DNA from: Membranipora membranacea
Lineage: Eukaryota; Bryozoa; Gymnolaemata; Cheilostomatida; Membraniporidae
Length of the DNA stretch: 64,000 bases
NCBI GenBank assembly: GCA_914767715.1
Contig: OU612069.1
Span: 4,092,001-4,156,000 of the forward strand
Direction: 5' to 3'
In this document: positions 14,336 to 64,000 of the stretch, one piece after another
Layout of the letters: each line of letters begins with the position of its first letter
How positions within the stretch are numbered: position 1 is the stretch's first letter
Position numbers and translations under genes: made by a program
The notes under the pieces: model-generated
Database searches by the model: none
Told to the model about the DNA's origin: nothing
The model's input: only the letters and a program-made list of their open reading frames with translations

Positions 14336-15234
14336 AATATCACGCTAAATCTTTAGAGATCAGACTTGACACTGCATGGTGACAATCACCACGATGTGGC
14401 GACATCCTACAATAGCATAGCTTATGCTTTTAGCAGCAAGGGTGAACTAGACAAGTCTTTGGAATATCACTGTAAAGGTCTCTCAATCAACCTTGACACA
14501 TTAGGTAAGTCCCACCCTGATATAGCATTGTCATACAACAACATGGGAAAAGTGTACGAGACCAAAGGGAACTATGATAAGGCTCTGAGTATCACATGGA
14601 GTCTCTGGCAATCAGGCTCGGCACACTAGGTCAAACTCATCCTGATGTGGCAAAATCTTACAGTAACATGGCCATGGCTCACACAGGTAAAGGTGAATAC
14701 GACAAAGCTCTAGAGTTTCACAAAAGATCCCTCAGCATCAGATTGGAAACTTTTGGAGAGAATAACCCAGCTGTTGCTGCCTCTTTCTATAGCATAGGCG
14801 AAACCTACAGCAACCAGAGCAAACTTGAAGAGCCAGAGGACTATCTAGATAAATCGCTAGCCATTCTCCTGAGCTTCCCAGCTGTTGAAGACACCTACCT
14901 CGCTAAAGCCTATAACTACATGGACTTACTGTGCAAGGATAAAGGTAAGCTTGAAGAAGCTCTTGAGAACCACAACAGATCCCTCAACTTGAGACTGATC
15001 ACCCTCAATGAGAATCATGTCATTGTGGCCGAGTGTTATAATAATATCGGCAAAGTCTACAGTCTTAATGGTGGGCGAGCCAAAGCACAGGAACATTACG
15101 ATAAACCGCTTGAAACCAGACTCAGAGTTTTAGGTGAAGATCATCCGGCTGTAGCTGATACTCTCCACAATATCGCACTTCTCTCTGAGGAGCGAGGTTC
15201 GAGTTTGGCTTTGGAAAAGTTCCAGAAAGTGTAA
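14336..15234 (+). pseudogene. Tetratricopeptide-repeat (kinesin-light-chain-type) gene remnant with two frameshifts
   Basis: About 290 residues of 42-residue TPR units, without introns. Typical unit signatures are SYNNMGKVYETKGNYDKAL, SLAIRLGTLGQTHPDVAKSY, FYSIGETYSNQSKLEE and CYNNIGKVYSLNGGRAKAQ. The spacing G-x-HPDVA...Y-x-G-x-YDKALE-H-SL-IRL is that of KLC, nephrocystin-3 and NACHT-TPR proteins. The frame breaks near 14372 (about 2 bp lost between EIRLDT and the next unit's HGDNHHDVATSY). It breaks again near 14591, where one base is missing in what should read KALEYHMESLAIRL. No upstream start or partner domain is seen. The last unit ends in a stop at 15232-15234, and an AATAAA lies at about 15452. 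It is probably a decayed, perhaps retrocopied, fragment of a larger TPR protein. Sequencing errors could mimic the frameshifts. Confidence 0.8.
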
Positions 15235-40300: not shown

Positions 40301-43300
40301 TAGTAGTCTACACCAAGTTTGGCCCATTTGCGGGCGTGATCAGTTGAAGGAAGTAACTGGAATGCAGGCAATTGGATTAAACATGATCTAGTAGTAGTCG
40401 GACTATCTGGCTGAGCCCTTGCTTTTGCTTTGCTAACTTTTTGTTTTATTCAACATCAAAATTAATGGGATAAATATTCAAAAAGAGAAGAAAAAATGCT
40501 TTTTTGGATATCGACAATGTCAGCTGACAGTTACTGATTGACTCCTTGCTTCTGTATTTTGTGCTGATTTGATCGTAAAATGAGTTTATATTACTATTGC
40601 CAATTCTTTTAGATACTCATAGATACCTTATTGGAGAGCGTCAATTTTTCTTTTTAAATACTGGTTGGACTGAGTGATTGTACTTTTCTATTTTAGACAA
40701 GGGGGATGGAGACCAGTATACACCACCAGGTCAGAGTACCAGTAGTAGAATCTGCTCTGTGACTCCAAACCCATCACACTCACTTAGTAAGTTAGTCTCT
40801 AAATCTCCGGCACAGCAAGTCATACATAGTGAAGATGGATCCTCTGGTGACATCAACCAATCATATGTCTACCCTGTAGCCGGCAGCCGATCAGATGACA
40901 CCCCTGTAGCAGCAAACATTCCTCAGTATAAAGCCGAGAAAGATGTCAGCACAGCCGAAGCTTCCCAACATTCATCTAATGAAGAGCTTTCTGTGTCAAG
41001 AAAAAGAAACCGTGTACTGCCATTTCCCTCATCTCAATCTGGCAGTGCTGTCTCTATTGATTATGGGGCTGCTGCAGCACAAGCTAAGCGTTCTGTTGAT
41101 TATGAGACCGCAGTATCAGGTTCTCCAACACCTGCTCAATCAACCGATGACGACTCAGTAGATGATGGAGTTGCTGTCCTCAGCGAAGCTCCCTCTATTG
41201 ACTGCGGGGCAGGAGTCAAACCAGCCCTGACCCTCCCTTCGTCTCAGGCAGTTAGCTGTGCGTCTGTTGACTACGGAGCTGAGGAAGAACTTGTGGAGAG
41301 AGGCACAAAGAAGAAAATGACAGTTGGGGGTACAGCCAGCGATGTTTCTGAGGACCACAGTCGTGTTCCTGCAGATTCTTGTAGAGTGTTACCTGAGCCC
41401 AAAGTTGACTGCACTCCTATTTTGATAGGTCCTAATCTGGAGATTAATATCCCAGTGCCAGAAGCCCCAAAATCTAGAAAGAGAAAGAAATCAGTGCCCA
41501 GACAACAGAAGACACCCCGTCCAAGGAGGCAAGCTGCTGCTAAAGCTCTACAAAGAATAAGTAGTGAGGTGAAGAACTATGAGGCTGTCAATAAAATGCC
41601 AGACAGATCAGACAACTTACCTGATGTTGTGATACAGCATACAACACCTGTACCTAACCTCTCATTTTCAGTAGCTCTAGCAGGTAGCACTGGGGGAAGA
41701 CTGACACATTCCACTCCATGTCCCACGCTGGCTTTTAATGATGGCCTTAAATCATCCAATAAGTCACCTGGGTTCACACCTATTGCTAAAAAGAAGCGCA
41801 TATCCAACATCCAACCAAAAAATAAAAAGGTTTCTGAGCACAAGCAAGATCAGAATGAGCCCATACAACCACGTGAAAACACACAGCCAAGACGCTCATT
41901 CAGTCATGATAAAAGTATTGAGAGTGTCATTGGCTCAGTAACTTTACCATGGGAAGGAAGGAAAGTGTTCTCTCGAGTTAACCGCTCACAAAGCTCTCAT
42001 AACTCGGCTAGATTAGCTACAAAAGAATCAACTGACCATGTTGTGGTTGATAGTGTGGAGAGCGAACGAATGAAGCCTATGCAGAAGCCCGTTAACATTG
42101 AAGGCACCTCACACTCTGGGCCTTCTCTGACCCTCAACTCTGTAATTAGTCAGCATCAAGAACCTGACGTCACACTGAAAGAAGGCGCAGCGATTGGGTC
42201 TGCTGCACCTGTTAACGATATGATTCTCGCTGAGAATAAAACAAATTTGGAAGTCAAAACCAAACCATTTACACCCAAACCGTTTCAGAAAACAGTCAGT
42301 ATCGAGCTGGATGACAGCCCAAGTATAACCTGGGATCAACAGCGATCAGATGAAATCAATGTTCAGGTTGACCCTGAGCCTGATGTTATGGGAAATGCCC
42401 TTTTGGAAAACCAAGGCGTAAGCGTAGCAACAAAAGGAACAACATCGAAAATCATGAATTTCAAGAGGCCTGTTGCTAAGGCCGACAGTCCCCCAGCGGT
42501 TTATATACGAGATCAGGTATGTGATAAGTTTGCTGACGTGAGCTTGTCGCAACAGATTGAGAGCTCCCCACAGGAACCTATTGATAGAACACCCATCGTG
42601 AAACAGAACAAGCAAAAGATGAAAAAGAAGATCACAAAGAAAACATTTACTCTAAAGAAAATAGAGAATGATGAAGTTGTTACTAATAATTCATTAAATT
42701 CTAGTCGCATCAGGACAACCAGAAGTGGCCGATGGCGCAAAGTTTTGCCCTTACCAGTCGGTCTTGAGTCATCGATCCTGAGTGCAACAGAACCCGATCA
42801 AGTAACAACTAAAGTGATACCTGCTGATATTAGTCATAATGTCTCAAAGGGACAAATGCATAAAAGTGCTACAGGCATAGGTCGTTCCATGTCGGCTGCG
42901 AATGAACAAGGTGATGTGGAGGATGAGAAAAGGCGATGCGACAGAGCTTCACTTACAGCTGACATTGAAGTTACAGAAGTGAAGCACAGCCCTGGAGCTA
43001 ATCAGAGCGTTCCTGGCATTAATCCCAGATATAAAGATGATGATCTAAATATATCACCAGAAACTAGGCTAATATGTAACACCACATTTACCGTTTGTGG
43101 ACCGACTCATTCTAACAAGTCCTCTATATCTGTATATGAAGCAACGAGTGGTCAAAATAATTCAAGTAGCTCAAACAACAAAACACCCAACTCCCCACTT
43201 CATGAATCTACTGCAGTGAAGACCTATAATAATGAACTACATGTTAGTGTGGAATCCTCATATACAGAGAGTCCAAGTGTGTCATTCATAAGTCAGAAGC

Positions 43301-46300
43301 GCTTGTCACGCAGTTCGCTGAACCTCTCTGGAGGTTCCATACGTCAGCCTTCTCCCTCAGAATCAGATGAGCCTGAGACCCATGTTTCCTTGGCAGCTAA
43401 AGAATCCCTCCTCTCTGAGAATGTACCGGCTATGGATAACACTAACGAGATTATTGATAATATCATGAAGTCTTCTGATATGAACTCCATGGTTTATGAT
43501 ATGACCACTCTTGTGTCTGAACCTGGACAACCAGATCGGAGTCGATCCTTCCTCACCCCAACCGGAGACCCATCGGATCAAGTAGATCAGGGAAATGGTC
43601 AAGCAGACACGCGACCTCTAACACAATTAGTACCTGTAACCCCTTCCTCACCTTTACTGATTAAAATGGCTCAACCTTCAAAAACTAGGAAAGTGAAACG
43701 AGCTGACCCTGTAATGGATGCAGAAAAAAGCATGCAATTAAATGCCTGTTTGGCAGTTACTGGTCATTCTAACAATATTGCCTCAGCACTCATCTCAAAC
43801 AAAGCACATGACAATGATGTCAAACCTTCTAGTGCAGCCCTACATCACAGTTCAGCTGATAGAAATCCATCAGAGAAGCTCTGTGCTGTATCAGATATTA
43901 CACCAATAGACAACGATACTGTGCCAGAAACACAAAATGCTCCTCCTGTCGCTACAGTTATGAGCGATGATGAAACAAAGTTTGAAACTGTACCTGAAAC
44001 CCAACAGTCCACGCCAGAGACTGGCGGAGATGTTGAGGCTGAGGTGTCAAAAACACCATCACAAGTTCAGTGTGACAGCAATCATGTGACATACAAAGAA
44101 AATGTGAATTCTCAGCCTATTGAGGGTAATACTGAACCATCTCCAATCAGTGAGCGCCCTAAGCGCAGGAGACCTGCTATGAAAACCCGGACAAGAACAC
44201 GATCAGAGCCTGCTAAACCAGCTACTACAACAAGAGCAGGAAGTAAGCGAACGAGGAGCCTATCAGAGCCACAACCCAGAGCACCTGCTGGTGATGGTGA
44301 TGAGGAAATCATAAGTGTGTCGACCAAACCTAGAGTTTCATTTGCTGACATAGTTAAGTATGCCATGACGCCGCGCTCTAGAGGTAAAGCTATAGTAGCT
44401 ATGTTTGACACGCCCGAGCCAAGTAGTGCCATCACGCCTATCAAGTCTATACTGAAGTCAACTGGATCAACTCCAAGTAAAGAGTTACATGCAACCAGCT
44501 TTGATTGCTACAATGCTGTGGCCAGAGAGATAACTCCCAAGGCCATGCCAGCCAGTGATGGTTTGGTAAAGGAGACTAGAGATGAAGTATTATGCAATTC
44601 AGATGACACTACAGTGAAGGCCCATCGTATAGCAGCTGTCACAACAGGGAAGGCCCATAATATAGCAGATGACACCACTACAGTGAAGGCCCATAATATA
44701 GTGGATGACACTACAGTGAATTTCTGTAACCCATGTCCGACTAAACATGAAAACAGCAACAGCAGTCACTTCATGTTCATCCATCCACCTGTTGAGGTGA
44801 GTGATCAGAATGATTTAATCTAATTTTGGTTATGGATTTCTTATGTTTTATTGAATTCTGTGTCTTGTTGTCATCGACGTTTAACTATTTCCAAACAGAA
44901 ATGATGATTAATGAGGGACTATCAGAATATGCCCCAATGATAGCTCACAGTTACAGATAAAAAGACACATACAACGAATAATTGCGTAAAGTAACAAGGT
45001 CTGTCATCAATATACTGCTATGGGATTTGGGCCCATTGCTTCATACCTTGCGAGTTGCCCTAACCGTCAGAGCTACACTGCCTTCTGTTCTATTGTGTTG
45101 GAAGTACTGTCTTGAAGCCCTTCTGATTTGCAAGCATTCATCTGAACAATCACGAATTCGACAAGCTGACATGAAATCATTTCAAGTTCTTTCTCTTTGC
45201 TGCAGACAAAACCGAAGACTAAAAACAGGCGCAATAAGAGCAGTGTCCATGATGTCTCCTCAGCCTTTGATGAGTTTGATAATAAGCTGAGAAACTTTCT
45301 ACTTGATGAATCTATAAATGAGAATAAGAGAACTACCACACCTACGTCTCACCCTCATACACCCGGTAACTATACCTACATCTCAAAATCCCACAACCGG
45401 TAGTTATTTGTTTTTATATGTGTCGTATGAAGCGGGCATTGATTTTAGGAGATATCTGCTCACAAACGACAATTAATATTAATGTTTACTTGCTGCATTG
45501 CCTGCTTGGTAAGTTGTATAAGTAAATCGAATATAAAATAAATTGACTAACTGGAGGAATACAAGGTGGCTTGTACATGTTAATATGCCAAATGTTTAAG
45601 AAGGTGAATTCGTGACATGGATAGAGTGTTTCTGTGATTTTATTCATACTGATACCTTGACTCAGCAGAGAATGATGAGATGAGAGGTGGTAGTGACGGA
45701 GGATTGTTCTTCAGTCGACGGAGAAAAGAAAGAATCTCCAGATACAGCCTTCTATCAACATGTCACGGCAAGTTCAAGTCTGTCTGTACCAGACAATCTC
45801 TCAATACCAAAACCCCACAACAAAAACCAGCGCGTAAGTTGATAGTTTATTCTTGCAAGGATGAAAAGGAGATGAAATATTAGATGCCCAACCTTTTTGG
45901 CTTCCTGCTTCAAGATGTTTTCATTTGTACTGTTTTGGGTTATATTTGTCAAGAGAGCGTTCATATAGAATGAGCAAGATTTTCCGAACAAAGTCCCAAA
46001 AATATATGCGCTCAGGATTATCGCTATCTGTTATTGCTTCATGATGTTAGATGTTATCTTTACCGCACGTTGGGCTCACATTTTGACAGCAGGGACTTTG
46101 AATTAATAACATTGAGATCGTTTCTTGCAATTGGGTTCAACCCTTTCCTAGTCATTTGCTCGGAGTATATATTGGAGCTGAGTGATTTGGAAACAATACC
46201 TCTAGCAGCTCTCTGTCATCTAAGCAATGAACAACTGCAGGATCTCGATCCATTTAGCTCCCCACTTAAGATACAACTACATCATGCAGCCGCTGCTGTA

Positions 46301-50984: not shown

Positions 50985-53900
50985 AGCCTGACTTCTACCA
51001 TCAAGCTACGGCACTGGGTCATTATCAGTGTTAGCAGTTATTATCTTTTTGTTGATGACCCTGATTTACTATACCTTTTTTTCATACCTTGATGTCTGAG
51101 AAAGGGCACACAATCACAAACAAGTTATTTTGATGTATTTTTTCATTGTTGACTTTTTTTTGTTATTCAAATTGTTTGTTGACTAGTTGACATATTTTTC
51201 GGCATTCGTAATTGGTAATTTGTATTCGGATAATAATATTTTTCCCTGTCCAAAAAATGTGGACAACTGTTGTTTCTAGTTTTTATCAACCTGTTTCAAA
51301 TTAAAAATTATATTTGATAATACCATACAAATATCCAGGCATCCTATTAGGTGTACTGTAAAGTCTCTGATAGAGCAAACCCACCAAAGACTCAAGTACT
51401 TAGCATAAAACAATTTATCTGCAGTATGATGTATCTCCTGTTGTCATGGCTTATCCAGTGTGTTGCTATATCTGCGTCATATTTGACTGTAGTTTATTGA
51501 TTTGCTGCCGCTTTCGCCACATCAGACATCTCTGTGTCCAAGGTGAAGCACCATAAGCTTGTAGTTGAGTAGCTTTTCATGGTTTTTAGTTGTACTTCGT
51601 TCAGATTGAGACTTGTTTGGAGTCGTGACCCCTTGAGATTGAGACTAGCTTTGAGTTGTGACACCATGAGATTGAGACTTGCTTGGAGTTGTGAAACCTT
51701 GTAATTGAGACTTGCCAGTTTGAGCAGGGAGTAGTGACATGGTTTGAGCAAGGAGTCTCAATGATGTAGTTTTTGAATGAGCGAGAGAATGCAGAATGCA
51801 CCAGAGATGAACACTGAAGGCTGATTAAGAACCAACAACACCACATCAACAAACACCAGCCACATCAACAACCAACATAACCAAGAAATCCCAACGACAC
51901 CAAACAACAACAAAGAACAATCTAATCTGAGAGATAAACCTACAAGAACAAACCCCCCCCCCCCCTTACCTGACCACAATAGATCTTCACCAACTACATA
52001 AACGACTACCAACTACTCAACAATTCCAGAAGCTAACATTACCACAAGTTACAACAAACTCTATTGGCTTTGCCTGAGAGGGGAGGTGTAAGGATGACAT
52101 CAGGTGTGAATAGACAAATTCATATCATCATCATTAATATGTCATCATGTTTAGGAATTTGCCAATATTTATGACTGATTGTGCTGTCATCGAAATTAAT
52201 TGATTGAATATTCATTTGCTCGCTGTATCCTGACTACATTTTGTTACGATCATATGAACTGCTGTGTTACTATTGGTTTAGATATTTTATGTCTCATATA
52301 TATATAAAAAGTTTTACTATCAAATAAACCAGTTAATACGTTGCAACGAAGTAGCATAGTACTTCTAAGTGATCACCCACCACAACTTGTAAGGACAGAG
52401 TACCCTTACAACTGTCCTTCTCTTCTACAGTTTCAAGCCAAAAACTGCATTAAAGTGAACTGATAACTCTAACAGAACCTTTGCCTGTCACAGAGAATAT
52501 CGTATCTACTGTTGAAGTCACATAACAGTGAGCTTTCCAAAGTAAATAATCCATCATTTCTGCATGTGGTTTGCCTCACACTGGGTCCTCATCCAGTGAA
52601 CCAAAGGGACCTACTTGAGATAAAAAGAGATGCATAAAAGATGATTTTGCCTCTGGTGCGCAATGTCCCAGAATATAGAAATTGCCCCTCATGGGTGCTT
52701 CAGAGATGTTTCTTAAACATTATTCAGTTATTCGTCCTAAAAAATCCTCCTCGAAGACAATTATCACTTTTAACAAAATAGCACAACGCCATGACATGGC
52801 GTCACGCTGAAACCATAATTTTCAGAATCAGTGTTTGTTCAAATTTCCAATGATATATAAAATGTTCAAATCGGTCAACATTGGAATCATATCCTTAACG
52901 CCACCGTGCTCTGCTCAAGTTATCCTCTAACTACAGTCAGTACAGTTCACTTAATTCAAATTTCTGGAGACCACAAAAATTTGTTCTAATTAAGCAGAGT
53001 TTGAAATAAGTGACATGAGAATGCATTGAGTTGAGAACTGACTATAGGGACCAATTTTCCTTGTCTGAATTAACAGGGGTTTTGAATTACAAAGTTTGAA
53101 TTAACCAGCTTACACTGTACTTTGTTTTTTTCTGACTCCTTGATAGGTTTACAAAATTGACAGTCTATCAAAGTCCTTCCCTGACCATTGAATGTGTTGC
53201 AGGTAATATCAAAACTAAAGAATAATACTACAGAGACAAATTAACCCTGCCACCATTTATTTTGCATAATCTAGCTAGAGAAAAAGAAGAAGAATTAGAA
53301 ATCGGAAAACATCATGTTTTAAAAAGAATCTAACTATTGTATATGGTTAATAAAAAATGTTCAAATACTAAGTTTAAATACATATCTGAGTTCTGCCTGT
53401 CTATTAAACAAAGCATTCAAAACAACTAGAGAAAGGAACCCATCATAGAACTCTCCTTATCAAGTTAATGATAATAGTAATGTGTAGTAAGTAAAACCAT
53501 AGTGGTTTGTAGAATGTCATGACAAACTTGTCATAGGGATGTCAGTCAATCCTTGAGCATCCTATTCAAAACAAGACGCAAGTTTGTGACATTATGTGTT
53601 ACCTGCGGATGTATAAATATAAATCAAGACATTAACTCAAAGTATCCAATATCTGATAGGGAAATAATCTAACCTTGTAAAATAACCTTAATCAAACTGA
53701 AGCATGATACACATGGGATTGCAGTGTAATATAGGAATGAAGCTCTACTGTCCACTCTCAGCATTATGTTGATAATTAGGTTCAGTGTGAATAGAAAATG
53801 CAAGGAGCAAAAAAACATGTGTAGACATTTTCTATATTAGTCATTACACCAACTTGCTCCCTGAACTGATAGCAGCAGATTACTATAAAAATGGTAGAAA

Positions 53901-54321
53901 ATATGTAGCATATGGGTGCCTTTTACGGTATAATGTTAGCTCATTATAAGAATGTGATTGAATATGATGATGGCGCGCTATAACATTCACCAAGTACCCT
54001 TGTCTTGTTGTATGAGTGCAACCACTGTCAGAGGATGGTAGTTATGTATGTGTGACAGTCCACTTATAATACTCAGCAGACTGGACTACACGCCCCCCTC
54101 GTTTTATCTCTCTGACTTCTTTCTCTACAAGTAGAAAAAAATCTGATAACAACAGATAGAGATTATTAAATTAGCAGATCAATTCTACTGACAGCATTCA
54201 GGATTATTTTGGATATAATTATATACATTATGAAGTTATCGTCAGATGCCCTGCTCATCCATAATAATATCTTTAACTTGCCTCATTTATAGTACTAGTA
54301 CATGGGTAAAAAAATACAGTA
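50985..54321. other. Intergenic DNA between convergent genes
   Basis: Must hold the 3' UTRs of the large plus-strand gene and of the minus-strand ROCO-caspase gene. It contains a 35-bp tandem repeat (51604-51718), a 12-C run (about 51953-51964) and an AATAAA at about 52324. No conserved coding frame was found. Confidence 0.5.
51604..51718. repeat. Tandem repeat, about 35-bp unit, 3+ copies
   Basis: The unit is GATTGAGACTTG-TTGGAGT-GTGA-ACC-TGA. Open frames across it on the minus strand are repeat translations. Confidence 0.9.
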
Positions 54322-57300
54322 TCATATAAGCATCCAAATAAGAGGAGTGAGCTTACCTAGAAGTGGTTCAATCCTTGTAACCACCTGGTTTGGCACATTC
54401 GCAAACATCTCAGGTGAGTTCTGAATTTGGACTCCAGGTAGCAGATACAGTTTTCTCAGATTAGTGAATGTGCAGACAGTTTTAGGCATCTGAGAGACAT
54501 AAGAGGCAGCAGTGGGAGCTGCAGCAGCACCTCTGTTCAGGTTCTGATCTGTTCTCTCCACTCCATATCTTGTCACTGATTCTCTTACCTGCAATTTTGA
54601 TGGTTGAAAATGGTAATGCATCATCTGTAAGAGTTTGAATGACTTCATGATTGGTTAAATGATTTCAGAGAGTGTAAGGTTGAATTATATTTATGGAATA
54701 TTAGAGGTGAGAATGACTCCGATCAAGAGATTTACTTCAATTGATGCATCAGTAGTTTAGAGTAAGTTGGGTTAGTCAGTTGCATTTATAGGCACTTAAC
54801 TGTTTGTGTCCATGAAGAAATATCTCAATATAACAAGGAACTTATGCAAGACTTACTATTTCAGCCAGAGATACAACATCATGCCTATGTCCCAGGGTGT
54901 ATAAGGTCGCCACCAAAGCCCTGATGAAGGGTGATCCAACGCCAGGGTTCCTTGGTGCAGCAAAAGCTACAATAGAAATTACTCTATGATACATAACAAA
55001 TCCATTGACCCATTAATACCTAAGGTGGCTGTAGTTCTGCTGTAATTTTATTATGGAAGAATTCTTGAAATAATCTTCAAATGATAATACGAGGGATAGT
55101 CCCCTCTAGTGCGATGGAATCATGACTGTACTGTACTGACTGTACTGTACAACCCCAAACAACTGCCACTTCTAAACTTATATTGCTGTTTAAGCTGAAT
55201 TTTTCTGCTGTTGAATACTCACAATCAAAGCTGGACTGCATAATGATCATATCTGATACAGATATGTCTTGTGTATCATTGTCCACTTCAAAGTCATTAG
55301 AACTCGGCATTGTCACAACTTGAGTGCTGCTATCAGTTTGGGGAGCTCTAAAAGCTGCTGTTCCAGTAGTGAGGTCGTCTCTCAACATTTCCCGATTACC
55401 TTTTTGAAAAAACGCGGATATGATCATCAGCTGCAAGACTTAGTAGATATGCTATAAGCCTGTACTGTATTGTATCAATTTCTTGATTTTATAAGCTAAC
55501 TGTCTTGTTGTTTATGTCCTTTCAGTTTCAACTTCAGACATAGTGTTATAAGCTACATTCTACTTAAACACAAAATCTGGTGTTGCTGCCTGATATTATT
55601 TCTCATTCAAGTTTAACAATACTTACTGCCAGCACATGCTTGTATGATCACAATCTTTGGTCGGCCTCTCATCACCGAGAAGTTCTTAGGGGAGAGTAGA
55701 TTGTAAATATCCGTAAGTCTGATGAAGACTCTGTCAGAGCCAATAATACAGCCCTCGTCTCCATGACTGGTCAGAACGAGTACAAACGCCCCCATATGCT
55801 TGTGTACTGATTGACCGACTTGATCTGTTAACTGTGTCTCGCAGTGTATGGCTTCGATGATTTCCTAGTAAAAAAAAACTTACGTAAGTCCTCCATAAAA
55901 GGTTTAGTTTCTCAAATTATTGACTGAGATAGTTTACTGCATTGATGTCATAGAGCAGTTACCCTGGAGCGTGGTCTGATATTGTCAAGGAGGGATGATT
56001 CTAAAGCCTGGTCATTCGTCACAATCAATCGTACATGTAAACAATTCACAGATTGTAAATGTTCAGCTTACCCTTGCAGTGTAGGTTTTGTGTTCACCTA
56101 CAGTAACAAACCCTAGTTTGTCAAGCATACACTTGATATTCTGATAGTCATGTTCAGAACCACTCCTTGTCTGGTTGTAGTCGTTAGAGACAATCAGAGC
56201 ACGTCCTCGGCATTCTGTCATCTGGTAAACAGTCTGAAAATAATCAGAAAACGAAGCCTTGATGATATTTGAACTATTTTGTTGCCTCATAAGCTTTACG
56301 ATCTGAGAATTGTACCAAGGAACTTCCGAACCACAGCTGTAATTATTCACTTCATAGACACAGCCTTCTAAGTTTGTGTGAAGACATGAAAATATCGATC
56401 AAAATCATAACAAAGTAGCAGCTTTATAAACCTGGCTTTCAGGGATTAAACTCTGATCTGCTTGTTGTGGTTCCATATCTATCTGGGGTTGCCTTCTTTT
56501 CATGATCTCCACTACATCCTGAACTTCGGACATCTGGATCTCTGGTATGCTCTGGCCAGGATCATCTGCTGTGAGAACAGGAGGAGGGTCAGGTTTCACA
56601 TAGTGCTTATTAGAATTTGAATTTTCTTTGCCTGTTTTCTTTTTACCGTAGAAACCAAGTTTCGTATGATTAATTCAGTAAAAGAGAGCTGTTGACTGAC
56701 CTGATCCCGCAGTTGTCTCCTCCCTTCTTATGTAGTCATCAAGAATTCTGACTCCCTCCTCACTGATCTTAAGACCTGTTTGAAACAACAGCAAAAATGG
56801 CAAGGTTAGCACCCCTATTGAAACAATCACTTGGTTAACATGCAATCCCGAAAATTAATGCTACAAATGGTAACAAATGAATTAATCGGATCTGCTGAGG
56901 CAGATAATGATATTTTTCCATGAACTTACATGGATATCTGAGAGGTAGCGGGACACGCCTCGTCCCATCGTTGGTGTCACATGGACAAGTCTCCTCTCCA
57001 GTGTAGGTGGTATGACGGGGCTCTGGCAGTTTGTATCTGACACGCCTGTTGAACCACTCAGGATTGACAAATGTTGCTGGTGATGACTGTTTGGTCAGTA
57101 GGCAATGAGAGCAGTAGAAGACATGGTCATATCGAACTCCTTTCCACACAGAATCCAATTCAGATGTAAGTCGCTTCATTGTTTCTAGTTGGGTCTTCCA
57201 AGCATCGCTGATAAGCCTGGCCGGTGTTTGCGTGATGAGTGTCACTTGTTTTTCTTTCTCATTATGCAATAGATACCGCAAGACTCCGTTCATCTCTTGC

Positions 57301-58851
57301 ACACTCGCTCCATTTATACCAGCTTCAGGTGTGTTGAATGGATTGACGCATATGTCTAGAAATCTTGCAGTGATTACATGATATACATATTGCGGAACGT
57401 TGAGGCCGTTCAGATACAGATCGACTCTCAGCTGAAGGTGATTTGTGCCTTCTGTTGGGTTTGGTATGTTCTTAGTGCTGAAGTAGGGAACGATGAACTT
57501 CTCACTGCCATCACTTTCTATAGGTCCACAGATCAGGTGAAATGTTTTCAGCAGCGTGATACCAACATCAACAGGTAGTTCCGATTCATTGCTGAGCAGA
57601 TTGTGAAGTAATGCAGCTCTTATGATTCCTGTGGCTTTGAAATCATTGACCATGCTGACATACTCTCTTCTGTCCACAGGTCTTTCCTTATATCTGTAGG
57701 GTCTAAATTTGGTTATGCGATATTCCCATGCTTGAGCATCTGCATGATCGTAAAGTGTCCTTATGACATCAGCAAGAACTGAAGGGCGATGGAATAAATA
57801 GTCACTCAGCTTCTCAACGTCCTGAAACCACATTATTCTTCCTGCTTCTTTGACGTACTGCAAAGCATGCTCACTGTTCTTACTGAAACCTTGTATGAAG
57901 TCAGTAACAGAAACATAAGGCTTTTGCTCTTCAGCAGTAAGCTTATTCAGCACTTCATACCAACTACCGGGTATATCAGTGATCAGCTTAGCCCCTGCTT
58001 CCTTCAGTGCACTCTTTAGTGATTTGATATCCATCTTGCTCGATGAAGCCGAGAGCTCTAGTATTGTTGTGATCAGGGGCTGTGCTCTGTCGATGAAACA
58101 TGTCATAGAGAAAAATGAGCTGTCAGGCATAGCAACACCCTCTTCTGATTGAATTACATCTAAACGCAGCTTCTCTGTTGCTGATAAAAGCTGTTTCTTC
58201 CTCAGTTTGAGGGTCTCGTTGCTAAGCAAATCACCATGAGTCAGTACGAGCACTGGTCTTCCTAGGTTTGGTTGTGATGTATATAGGTGCGCTATCCACT
58301 GGAAGCATACATCCTGAGCTGCAGCCTCTACTCCATGCGCATGTACTAAACTGTCAAACTCTGCTATATCTACCACTAGAAGTGGTACAGATTGTACTTT
58401 GGCGTTCACTTGATAGGCAAGGTGATACACCTCATGCCCTCCCAAATCAGTGAATACCACCTTCAATTTCTCATCAATGTCAGCCTCGCATACATTGAAG
58501 ACACGTGTTGCCTCATCAAGCTTGATGTCGATATCGGAACGGGTTGTCAGCACACGCTGATCCTTCTGTACGCTCCTCACAATGCTTGTCTTTCCTGCTT
58601 TAGTCTTGCCTATGACTGTTACCGGAATGAGTCTGAAAATGTTATCTTTTTCAGCATGAAGATCATGCAGATACTTCCTTACAGCTTCTATACCCTGTAT
58701 GCAGACAGCATAGGGAGGAGATACTAGTGCATAGCAGTCGTCACATCTGAAGGTCTTTAGCGTGCTGATATTGAAGATACTTTCAGGTATAGAGGAGAGT
58801 GACCTGTTTCTTCTAATATCAAGTACTTCCAGTTTGGTGAGTTGCCCCAGG
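54322..58851 (-). CDS. LRR-ROC-COR GTPase fused to a caspase (ROCO-caspase), 5' end incomplete
   Basis: Minus-strand exons: 56930-58851, 56701-56775, 56432-56631, 56072-56302, 55627-55864, 55223-55399, 54857-54966 and 54322-54588 (stop TGA; a donor at 54356 is also possible). All phases agree (1,1,0,0,1,1,0). About 1,070 residues: last LRR (LGQLTKLEVLDIRRN), the GIEAVRKYLHDL junction, and a ROC GTPase with P-loop GKTKAGKTS, switch DLGGHE and THGD in place of NKxD. COR follows, ending in a Cys-rich stretch (YCSHC, CPC), then a disordered linker of about 90 residues. The caspase has RGRALIVSN, catalytic His in SHGDEG (CAT 55763-55765) and catalytic Cys in IIQACAGS (TGT 55634-55636). An Asp-containing inter-subunit linker and p10 (PRNPGVGSPFIRAL, QMPKTVCTFTNLRKLYLLPG) complete it. 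The S1-pocket Arg is kept in PRNP, but the usual Trp before it is Pro. Inferred role: nucleotide-controlled protease in cell death or immunity. Confidence 0.88.
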
Positions 58852-60510
58852 CTGTTTAAAAGATAAAAATATATTTACTTTCAATCATAATGAGCGTTGC
58901 CGACATGGGGATGAACTTTTAGTCATGACTAGACAAGTGCAAGGTACAGTGAGTGGTATGGTGGGTTGGCCAAGGTTGCACAAGAAGATACAAATGTGTT
59001 GATATTTGGGGAAAATGGCGCAGTCATTGCAGCCTCGCCCTCAAGGCACACACTATTTCACCGCCACGATGTGGTGAGTGACAAACACTTGTGATTTTAT
59101 CCAAAATTTTTTAAGCCAACTAATGACTGAGTACTAAATTGTGAGTTTGTTACTCGCAGCAGGGCCAAATGATAGCAAGTATCACAACACCCGCTATCCC
59201 AACAAATTAAAGAAAAAGTTTACTTTTATTTCTTTTTCGATGAAATGCAATGTTATGTAGAATAATAAGTCATTCTTTCGTTTGTTATTTATCACTTCTG
59301 TTGTGACAGCCCATGACCACCCTATTAATTTGATCAAAATTGTAGCGCTGATTGTTTTTCATTCTTTTGCTAATCTGCTAACCAATTTCAACATAAGACC
59401 ACCTCCAGTATGCAGTGAATTTATTACTTTGTGAGGCCTTATGCTGTTCTCTAGGCTTTGGGAGTCAAGGTTCAACCCTGAACCCCGTATCGGGGGGTTG
59501 TGGGGGGGGGGCTTACAGCGCTTTTCCCAAAGCTGAGAATAATTGATATGACACTGCGCTGCACAGGATACTCAATGATGGCAGGTTCACATTCATCATT
59601 GAACTTGGGAAATTTTAAGTTCGATAGGCCACATAATCGTGAAAACACCGTCATTTCGCTCTATTTTTCAGTAACAAAGTTTTCTTATTCAATGGTAATC
59701 GGCTACATTTAGTTATTTTTACAGGATAATACACCCTTGGCATCGTAACTTTTAACATAATATTACTTGATAGAGTTAAAAGTCTCAGATTATCACTATC
59801 AAAAAACTTGTCTTCTTGAGTTACTGTACAAATTATTTTATTTTAAATTGAGGAGGACTAATAAATTTGCTAAATATAGTCTCATCATAATGCATTTTCG
59901 TTCTGGTCGATTTTCCTGCTAATTGCCAAAAATAGATATAATTAATTAAATTAATATTATGCCTCATTGATAACTTCCCTCTTACTAGGAAAGGTTGCTC
60001 CAACATAATAAAATGATAATAATAATAATGAAAATTTAAATAAAGATAATAATGATATATGTTTGTATTATGCACAAGTATCTTATTGGATTAATAAGTA
60101 TTGCCCCTCATGTTAATGGAAGATGACAACTCAATAGAGCGATCAAGGTGTAAGGTCATTGATACAATATCTGATAGTTATTTTGTATCAAGTTTACCCT
60201 GTTTACTTAACAAAGTTTGAAAAGGTTACAGTCCAGTAGATCTAGGATAGGCAAGATGTATTCCATCCCATAGAAAGATAAGTAAAGTAGATATTTCATG
60301 TCATCTTGGAAAAGCTCCATTGGGGTATGTACTGAAATCCGATAAGCTGCAAACCCAACATGAGGAGCATAGAGCACCATTGACAAGTGCTGCTTTACAC
60401 CCTCAAGGATTATTACTTTCCCTATGTTAATTATAGATCAGTTTTTGAGAATTGGCACCGGTATCGTAATATTTCGGATAGTTTTAATGACACATAATAT
60501 TATATCATAC

Positions 60511-60646
60511 CTAATTTCAATCCGGCAAAGTCGCAATTCAAATCCGTATGCAGCATTACTTTGAAGAGTATTAAGAAACCACATCACTTGCTGGTGTCTC
60601 GCTGAACATTGTTCCGGTATGTTGTTTATACTTGTCTTCCAAAATA
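60511..60646 (-). CDS. Candidate upstream LRR exon of the ROCO-caspase gene
   Basis: Open between an acceptor (AAATAG at 60652-60647) and a donor (GTATGA from 60510). It ends in phase 2, as the exon at 58851 needs. The join would read FELRLCRIEIS then LGQLTKLEVLDIRRN, a plausible continuous leucine-rich repeat. The preceding residues (FWKTSINNIPEQCSARHQQV) are not clearly LRR. This is inference from phase and local pattern only. Confidence 0.4.
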
Positions 60647-61734
60647 CTATTTCCAAGGTGGTATAGAAACATTGCGACAGCAGAAATCATATCCCATTAC
60701 ACTGATTATATTGGTTGAGAGGACAATCTAATGTTCTCAGATTATTGGAATGAGAAGTGTCACCATTATGAGGAGAGAAAGCACTGTACATTGTGACAGT
60801 TTTACGAAAAAAACATTACCACAATGCATTTAATTTTGAAAATCATCGGTGGCTATGAGGTGGTTGTCACGGCATTATAAAACAAACTTCATGGGATGAT
60901 CATAAAATAATTCTGTAGTGATAGAAGAACTGTGATGCTATAACATTGTTAACATTGAAAAATTTTTGATAGCATGATCATAACATCATTAAAGTGCTAA
61001 TTATAAGCTGTTTTCTCGCATTTAACAGTGATGTACCGTCATGTCAAAAATAATGTTTGACTAATACTTAGAACCAAAGATTCTGCTATATCTGAATCTG
61101 AACATTGTGATTACCATTCTGTATCCTATTAGGCAATAACCAAATCCCATCATTTACACACCATGTAATACTTGATAAAATTTTATGCAAAACAATGTCA
61201 CAATGTTCACCGTTTGCTGGGTTTTTGACCTGCATTTGTAACAAGAAGTCAAAAAGTTATGAGGTTCTGGAATATAGGGATCACAAAAATTCCCAGGGAT
61301 CAATTAGCATTTATAAACTTGGATTTTTAGCTTTTGATAGGTAAACTATAAAGATTAATCCCTTTTCTTTTATATCTACTGGTAGGAACACATAACAATT
61401 GTCTTAAACAAACTGATCACATGGATTTGTAAATAAAAGGCAGTATCACCATGTCTAGCATACTCTGCAAGTCCTCGTCGAAAAGGTAATGAAACTGCCA
61501 ACACAGGTCTCCAAAATTTAAATTCACACTTCTGTTTTTAAATTTTACTAATCGCAGTCACGTAGATATGTTGGTAGTTGGTTGTTTGACTGAACTAAAT
61601 ACAAAATCTTTATTTTCAGTTTTAACGCTTTGTATATTTGGTATTTTTTCAGGTCCTTGCCATCATTTTAAGGACAAATCCTCCACCTGTACCATTTAAA
61701 CATTTGTAAATATATTCAACTGTCAACAAATTGA

Positions 61735-61903
61735 TTATAAACCTAGACATGACACTATATGGATATTGAGGCACTGAGGGACTCAATTGTGGGCAACGTT
61801 ACGTCATTGGAAGGTGTAGAAGCAATGATGCTATCATTGATTTTCTGTCTACAATCCAGATTTTTTGTTCATAACTCGATCAATTTTGATCGGATTTTGA
61901 GAT
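61735..61903 (+). repeat. Dispersed repeat of about 170 bp, copy B
   Basis: Partner of 22627-22805, same orientation. It starts AAACCTAGACATGACACTATATGGA and ends with the same ATAACTCGATCAATTTTGAT block. The short open frame crossing it is not a gene. Confidence 0.85.
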
Positions 61904-64000
61904 TAAAAATTACAATAGATTTAGCAGCTCATCTCATTTACGCCATAAAAGATTTGGAACTCAGTGACCTGTTACCCCACAAATTTGATATACATATAGA
62001 AAGTCTTTTGTTCTGCTATGAAAAATCCACATGAAATTTAGAAGAATAGAAACAAAAGACAGTGGATATTCTAGTTTGTATCAACTGTTGTGTCTTTTGA
62101 TTGAAAGCCCAGCAGTTTTGAATTTGACACCCTATACTAGAATTAAATATAGATTTAATTTCACGCAGTTAAATTTTAATTTGATTCTGCAAGGTTTTGG
62201 TCTTTATATTTTTAAATATGCCTATCGTATACCATGCTCACTGAGTTAGAACTTTATCGACAGAGGACTGAGGACTAGGGGGTATAAAGATTCCTTAGCA
62301 AAACTTTTTAAATTGATGATAATCCAGAGCGGCAGAATTTCACTCAGGATGGCAGCATTAGAGCTGCAACAATTTAATATCCAACAATTTCCTCTACTCT
62401 TTTGTCTCTATGATACTTTTGAATTTCTTGCCACAAGCTGGTATTGCTGGTATGTCGGGTAGATGCAGTAGTGAATTTGCCTAGGGGACTTGACCCTACC
62501 AATTTTCAGCGTGTCAATTTTGAAAAACCTCTTGTTTTTAATTACCAAGTGCCCAGAGGGCCTCATTGTGAGATTAGTTGGAATTATGAATGGATTACGC
62601 TGGTTTACTTGGTGCAATAGCCAATTACCATGATTTTCCCCTTTGATCTGAGCAAATAACTATAGCCAACGTCACTAGGCACTGATTTTCTTCATCCTTG
62701 ATTTCAGTACACCAATCTACACATATTTAAAATTAAGACCAATAAAACGATGGTCTTTTATAAAAGACTCATGCAATAAAATTTGAGTCCATAATGGCAA
62801 ACAATATGATATGGTCTTCTACTCTAAAGCTCATCTGCAGGAGTGAACTCTCACTGCAGGAGCCATCGAATGTTCTCAGGGTTGACAATAGTAGGATAAT
62901 CTCATTTATTGAACCCACCATACACAGACCATTTATGAGAGATTTCACAAAGGAACATTACACAGGACAATTTTTTGTGTAAATACCTAGAGATAATAAT
63001 CAGCCTTCACTCTATTGTTTCTTTGGAGATTAGGCATCACATCCATTTTAAATTTAATGTAAATGAAATTATCCTAAGAAGACAGGAGACACCTATACTT
63101 GTTTAGGTGAACAAACTCAGAGTAGTTCTCACAAGATGATGTCTCAATAACAATAACCAACCCAGGTGAAATCAACAAGCGGAATTTATGGTTATGGTTA
63201 ATCTATCACATTTGGCCTATTTTAAAACTGGCAATATACAAAAAATGTAAACAATTTGTATTTAAGTGTTAACAGCTGAGAATAAATGTGTTTCCCTGAT
63301 CTGACAAGACACTAAGACTTGACGAGTTATCTTATAGGTATTAAAAAATTAAGAGTTTACTGTGATAACATTAACCCCCTTCAGGTGTACTGAAATGACT
63401 TAGGTAAGATTTCGAAGATTTCTGGTTCTTCTATCATACTTGAGTACTTTTTGTATTCTGCTTTCACAATTAAATTTTGGTTCCATTTTCATATTAGGAA
63501 CAATAATTTAAGTCGGCATTCAATAATCTGATATTATTTTAAGTGATGTCATGTTAGAAGACAAGACTACAGGTTCACATCAAATCATCATTGTGATATT
63601 AATATTGCATCATCGTATTGTGCTGAGTGTGAGGCTTCTACACGATTCAATCCCTTTCATTGTTTTAACCTTTTGTAAACAAAAGAATCCTTTATATGCT
63701 GAGCCTGATTTTTTTCAATAGAGGATAAATGTAGCATGTCAGCTTGCATCCAAAGTTTATAAGAGAAAACTGAGAATAAATTTTAAGAAATGCTGCATTA
63801 AATGAATGGAAAATGCGATAGAGTGACCCTAAATGATTCATCCATAGGCAACGTCACAACTAAGTCACACAAAAAATTTGACGCTTCTAGCATTTGTAGA
63901 AGTGAATTTTAATTGAATGATCTGGTTAATAAAAGATATTTTTTTGCCAACATTTCATCACGTTGTATGAAATTCATGATTTTTTGCATTCATTTCGTTT

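Follow-up and report, generated by a model that had tools for sequence, protein, structure and literature searches.

A predicted bryozoan gene in which the end of a leucine-rich repeat region and ROC-COR are followed by a caspase

The window analysed here is a stretch of 64,000 nucleotides from the bryozoan Membranipora membranacea (contig OU612069.1, positions 4,092,001 to 4,156,000 of the forward strand). It contains the greater part of one predicted animal gene, in which the end of a leucine-rich repeat (LRR) region, a ROC GTPase and a COR domain are followed by a caspase. The product is likely a single-chain death or immune receptor, a reading to which we assign a probability of roughly 0.6. 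Judged from the sequence, ROC-COR and the caspase are most likely joined in one gene, and a single mRNA would run across all exons. One gene is favoured over two by three observations: the same join in an annotated protein of another bryozoan, which is the strongest of them, the exon end that the gene shares with ROC-COR relatives, and the absence of a poly(A) signal between the two parts.

The exon chain and the join

The gene lies on the minus strand, where nine exons with GT/AG borders run from window position 58851 to 54042 and form a single frame of 1044 codons that ends in TAA. The frame is kept across all eight junctions, and the order of the parts is LRR end, ROC, COR, linker, caspase and terminal stop exon. 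Exon A (56930..58851) encodes 640 residues with the end of the LRR region, the ROC GTPase (P-loop GKTKAGKTS, 58584..58610) and COR; its acceptor is AAACAG/C, and its donor, T/GTAAGT, splits a Cys codon. The linker is encoded by exon 2 (56701..56775; LKISEEGVRILDDYIRREETTAGS), which has phase 1 on both sides, and by exon 3 (56432..56568), which has a weakly similar stretch in the caspase relative P0015. Exon 4 (56072..56233) starts the caspase large subunit and carries a putative P1-Asp-pocket Arg in TRSGSE. Exon 5 (55627..55864) continues this subunit with the catalytic His (SHG, about 55763-55765) and Cys (QACAG, about 55634-55636). An Asp-rich stretch between the large and small subunits, the likely cleavage region, occupies exon 6 (55223..55399). 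The small subunit begins in exon 7 (54857..54966) with the second Arg of this kind (APRNPGVGSPFI) and ends, together with a tail, in exon 8 (54357..54588). The terminal exon 9 (54042..54124) carries the TAA stop, and its C-terminal end resembles that of P0015 (YYKWTVTHT compared with YKWLVRRNV). A sequence-only reading of this DNA had proposed eight exons and seven junctions, all of which are present, with GT/AG borders and no break in the frame. Its end of the chain at 54322 is corrected here, as exon 8 ends at 54357 and the ninth exon, from 54124 to 54042, carries the stop.

The introns measure 132-268 bases (154, 132 and 198 for introns 1-3) and contain stops in all three frames. The G+C content is 0.448 in the exons versus 0.387 in the window, and the 64-kb window contains no Ns. 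Five of the eight junctions (1/2, 4/5, 5/6, 6/7 and 7/8) lie inside clear ungapped alignments to the relatives P0020 or P0015/P0016; junctions 3/4 and 8/9 fall in weakly similar stretches and junction 2/3 falls in the gapped linker. The odds of the 404 stop-free codons after exon A are about 3e-11 by base composition, a figure that disregards the exons being chosen as open. A 3´ splice site precedes exon A, in which no in-frame ATG occurs before ROC, so the gene start should lie upstream; searches of the 5.1 kb left in the window did not reveal the 5´ exons. A search by tblastn with the model, P0015 and P0016 revealed no additional copy in the window (one chance match, E 0.61).

The join is best seen in P0020, an annotated protein of 554 residues from Watersipora subatra, also a bryozoan, which is named caspase-8-like by NCBI and UniRef. 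Model residues 480-992 and P0020 form one alignment through COR, linker and caspase (E 3e-63 with 27% identity over 566 columns; the E-values for P0020 come from single-sequence BLAST). The parts also match when taken alone, with 1e-21 for COR, 3e-35 for the caspase and 0.001 for the linker. Pfam assigns Peptidase_C14 to P0020 at 8.3e-36 and COR-B at 3.1e-4, the latter below the cut-off. P0020 is joined at the same Cys as the window gene and is encoded on a contig of 75.9 Mb. When the 20 residues at the start of exon 2 were compared without gaps to the corresponding place in P0020, the score was reached by 10 of 100000 shuffles. The two proteins share the C-terminal half of COR, the linker and the caspase, whereas P0020 lacks ROC and LRR. 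The domain order that the sequence-only reading wished to see in other animals is found in W. subatra from COR onward, but without the ROC.

The end of exon A is itself a family feature. The ending '..PC' occurs in 14 of 15 ROC-COR sequences, with P0024 as the differing one (the count includes the window gene and P0001; 13 sequences were scored by script and P0008 by reading). The donor pattern GT[AG]AG[TC] fits 10 of the 11 sequences that run on for at least two residues, the window gene being excluded and the fit being deduced from protein rather than DNA; P0004 falls outside this consensus, with an Arg at that place. The shared exon end and the donor-like run-on suggest that exon A is made for onward splicing. 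Neither AATAAA nor ATTAAA occurs between exon A and exon 4. The nearest downstream AATAAA is located at 53256..53261 on the minus strand, 0.8 kb past the stop, and the only other one within 53000-58900 is at 55052, in intron 6.

The domains of the predicted protein

The ROC GTPase motifs GKTKAGKTS, DLGGHE and THGD are all present in the gene model. Counted over the covering family sequences, the window gene included, G1 is found in 10/10, G3 in 11/11 and G4 in 11/11; in P0002 and P0003 the G4 motif reads THCD. Pfam lists Roc at E 6.1e-6 (26.9 bits, cut-off 27.0) and COR-A at E 8.8e-5 (22.9 bits, cut-off 35.3), and COR-B is not listed. The Roc scores of the relatives P0002 and P0008 are 34.3 and 30.3 bits. 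The weak profile scores are helped by the predicted structure. Predicted with AlphaFold2, exon A has a mean pLDDT (predicted local distance difference test) of 75.6, with values below 50 in the last 60 residues, and its best structure match is the LRR-Roc-COR crystal structure of CtRoco (E 6.6e-19), followed by LRRK1 and LRRK2. The predicted fold matches all three over the ROC-COR length, with COR placed directly after ROC.

Approximately two LRR units are visible at the start of exon A, where Pfam reports LRR_14 at E 0.067. An LRR array was not found in the window, and no LRR exons were detected in 58852-64000 by regular expression, by a profile or by tblastn. The profile, which was built from five repeats, is weak: exon A itself scores E 0.45, below a plus-strand piece at E 0.26. 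The earlier proposals that the gene extends to 60646 and that it senses a ligand through its LRRs therefore find no array to rest on in this window. Neither a kinase nor a Death domain is among the nine Pfam families that the 1044 residues match with an E-value of 1 or lower (the 5´ end of the gene is missing), and no Pfam match to NACHT, NB-ARC, CARD, DED, Death or CHAT was listed for the model.

The caspase part is more clearly recognised. Peptidase_C14 is matched at 3.2e-28, both the large and the small subunit are matched, and the best sequence match in the PDB is CED-3 (1.4e-13). SHGDEG and QACAG are present, with the His and Cys aligned to those of CED-3. In the covering family sequences, again including the window gene, the catalytic His is conserved in 6/6, the Cys in 6/6 and the first Asp-pocket Arg in 7/7, and the second Asp-pocket Arg is found in 4/4 aligned sequences; we take these two Arg to be the residues of the P1-Asp pocket. 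Nine Asp lie between QACAG and the small subunit. The caspase is predicted to be Asp-specific and to undergo self-cleavage within the Asp-rich part of exon 6. The P-loop, SHG and QACAG named in the sequence-only reading are thus all present, with catalytic residues that appear intact, and of the profiles it called for on the spliced product Peptidase_C14 is recovered clearly while Roc and COR-A score under their cut-offs. A Foldseek search with a structure model of the caspase of P0015 returned only caspase entries in its best 50 rows, which we count as weak support.

A Met marks the beginning of the caspase domain (window 56219-56221, minus strand) in all seven covering sequences, and P0020 has one extra residue before RGRAL. 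This Met looks like a past or present start codon and may serve as an alternative start.

Alternative explanations

Several points weigh against the reading of one ROC-COR-caspase receptor. Roc scores just under, and COR-A under, the Pfam cut-offs, and the LRR array is missing from the window. Exon 2 and P0020 share just 4 of 20 residues, and P0020 begins inside COR and has no ROC. A transcript from ROC through the caspase was not found in the sequence searches. P0015 and P0016 look spliced and show a caspase without ROC-COR, and P0016 and P0019 were called from the conserved Met. The structure model of the P0015 caspase is also poor, with a mean pLDDT of 49.0.

Some of these points would be explained if the locus made two products, the long ROC-COR-caspase protein together with a short caspase that starts at the conserved Met, or even the short caspase only, through its own promoter or alternative splicing. 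We consider this unlikely, although it deserves serious weight: the Met is kept in every covering sequence and is the called start of P0016 and P0019, and P0015 lacks ROC-COR. The calls from Met could, however, be an artefact, since gene prediction on short contigs may take the earliest ATG that follows an intron. The short caspase is also at odds with the missing AATAAA and ATTAAA signals between exon A and exon 4, with the small size of introns 1-3, with linker exons 2 and 3, which weakly resemble P0020 and P0015, and with P0020, in which one annotated protein covers the join. Equally doubtful is that the fusion is real but that its caspase is a scaffold or a protease with a role other than death, as in development, differentiation or colony growth. 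Non-death roles are common among animal caspases, but the conservation of the catalytic dyad and the Asp-pocket residues across the family argues against a scaffold. It is very improbable that one gene has been read from two unrelated neighbours or from an assembly join: across the join just the weak exon 2 alignment continues and no spanning cDNA from Membranipora was found in the sequence searches, but the same join recurs in W. subatra, where the contig is 75.9 Mb long, the window has no Ns and the end of exon A is common to the ROC-COR family.

Relatives, known systems and a possible mechanism

The many relatives with ROC-COR or caspase parts indicate a gene family. The first protein search covered in its scoring the 7988 candidates with the highest number of shared words. 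Besides P0020 and P0001, which is 99% identical and probably represents the same locus as the window gene, the relatives comprise thirteen ROC-COR sequences (P0002-P0008, P0017, P0018 and P0021-P0024) and six caspase pieces (P0015, P0016, P0019 and P0025-P0027). P0026 is 95% identical to the exon 4 region and, by eye, less alike in the stretch just upstream, a pattern that points to a recent duplication of the gene or to a divergent allele. The family does not include six ROC-COR proteins that are more distantly related (P0009-P0014). Four of them (P0009, P0010, P0012 and P0014) carry a Death domain, and none is listed for P0011 and P0013. P0012 and P0014, which are probably animal proteins, share the LRR-ROC-COR core with the window gene but end in a Death domain instead of a caspase. 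No relatives were found among 73 candidate stretches from IMG/VR or among 53 from prokaryote genomes. Among plasmids, three cyanobacterial records hold ROC-COR relatives, one with CHAT and two without a Pfam match after COR at 0.001.

Bacteria provide precedents for the domain order. The published account of bacterial LRR-AP-GTPase(ROC)-COR proteins gives caspase among at least 24 C-terminal effector domains (Kaur et al., 2021; PMC8195603), and its LRR-ROC-COR-caspase proteins have the same domain order and logic as the window gene. The window gene differs from the bacterial systems in having eight GT/AG introns and in a caspase whose best PDB matches are CED-3 and other animal caspases. The plasmid record with CHAT is pNsp_j of Nostoc sp. 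ATCC 53789, which encodes WP_159402710.1 (L003:3165-7772; 1535 residues; annotated as leucine-rich repeat protein). Like the window gene, this protein has LRR, Roc, COR-A and COR-B followed by a protease domain. Unlike it, the protein carries CHAT (PF12770) rather than Peptidase_C14, a full LRR array and one uninterrupted frame. CHAT belongs to the caspase clan. The pNsp_j gene lies near genes for a PIN-domain protein and a recombinase.

Animal precedents are partial. The core of the human ROCO proteins LRRK1/2, DAPK1 and MFHAS1 is combined with a Death domain, a kinase or nothing, not with a caspase. In amphioxus, LRR-caspase and TNFR-caspase hybrids are described, and transcripts of many hybrids, TNFR-caspase included, were recovered (PMC2575513). 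They resemble the window gene as an animal single-chain 'shortcut' from receptor to caspase but differ in that the passages on them name no GTPase, ROC or COR; in the main text of that paper, 'GTPase' and 'ROCO' have 0 matches. ROC-COR-TIR genes are reported from Aplysia (PMC9334734) and, as NG1, from a sea anemone (PMC5094078), and ROCO genes with CARD and death domains from Trichoplax (PMC4104024). As here, these genes combine ROC-COR with immune or death domains, whereas the portions of these papers used for comparison present adaptors and describe no protease. Inflammasomes and the apoptosome employ a NACHT or NB-ARC ATPase and a separate caspase recruited through death folds, and the window gene has no match to those domains. 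Pfam lists none of their domains for it. A parallel in function with these assemblies, as drawn in the sequence-only reading, may hold. An animal ROC-COR-caspase was not described among the literature matches listed in a full-text search that covers few subscription journals. The architecture is less novel than the sequence-only reading supposed, as the bacterial LRR-ROC-COR-caspase and amphioxus LRR-caspase proteins are published. The observation itself is confirmed, with more support than a reading of the sequence alone could draw on, and no earlier animal example was found, but bacterial and partial animal precedents exist.

Two further features were observed elsewhere in the window. Positions 14581-15234 (plus strand) encode tetratricopeptide repeats (TPR_12, 4.3e-38) and are probably an exon of another gene. 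Positions 40678-44823 (plus strand) contain an open frame of 1381 codons, a very large single exon that is rich in Ser and Thr by eye and has no Pfam match at 0.01.

If the gene encodes a single-chain receptor, its LRR repeats may sense a signal, possibly microbial or from damage, and the sensed signal would shift the nucleotide or dimer state of ROC-COR. The geometry of ROC-COR may then set whether two attached caspases pair. Paired caspases would become active, process themselves within the Asp-rich region of exon 6 and then cleave cell proteins. Initiator caspases in general are activated by proximity dimerisation. Activation through proximity-induced dimerisation is reported for caspase-1 (PMC4650733). 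For CtRoco, the nucleotide-free form is described as a dimer whose LRR folds back, and the form with GTP as open and monomeric (PMC11052575). The monomeric state with GTP counts against this scheme and, by analogy, the idea that GTP drives dimerisation may have the direction reversed. The active nucleotide state cannot be told from the sequence, and CtRoco warns against equating GTP with pairing.

The Death domain of four of the six outside ROC-COR proteins stands at the C-terminal end, in the place that the caspase takes here, which suggests that an adaptor may have been replaced by an enzyme. More tentatively, and at somewhat less than even odds, the relatives may form a bryozoan multigene family of one-protein inflammasomes in which a protease replaces the Death adaptor and the GTPase gates the caspase directly, a family that arose independently of the bacterial LRR-ROC-COR-caspase and CHAT proteins. 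That would be the first GTPase-gated caspase in animals. In animals, initiator caspases normally depend on separate scaffolds, which activate them by way of death-fold adaptors. With ROC-COR and a caspase joined, sensing and the start of cell killing would reside in one protein. A protein that contains its own GTPase switch would provide a minimal system for the control of an attached enzyme by ROC-COR, with a protease rather than a kinase as the read-out; this control is still an open question for LRRK2, the Parkinson's protein. The gene would also be an animal parallel to the bacterial LRR-ROC-COR-protease defence proteins, and in colonial animals the killing of infected or foreign tissue plausibly pays.

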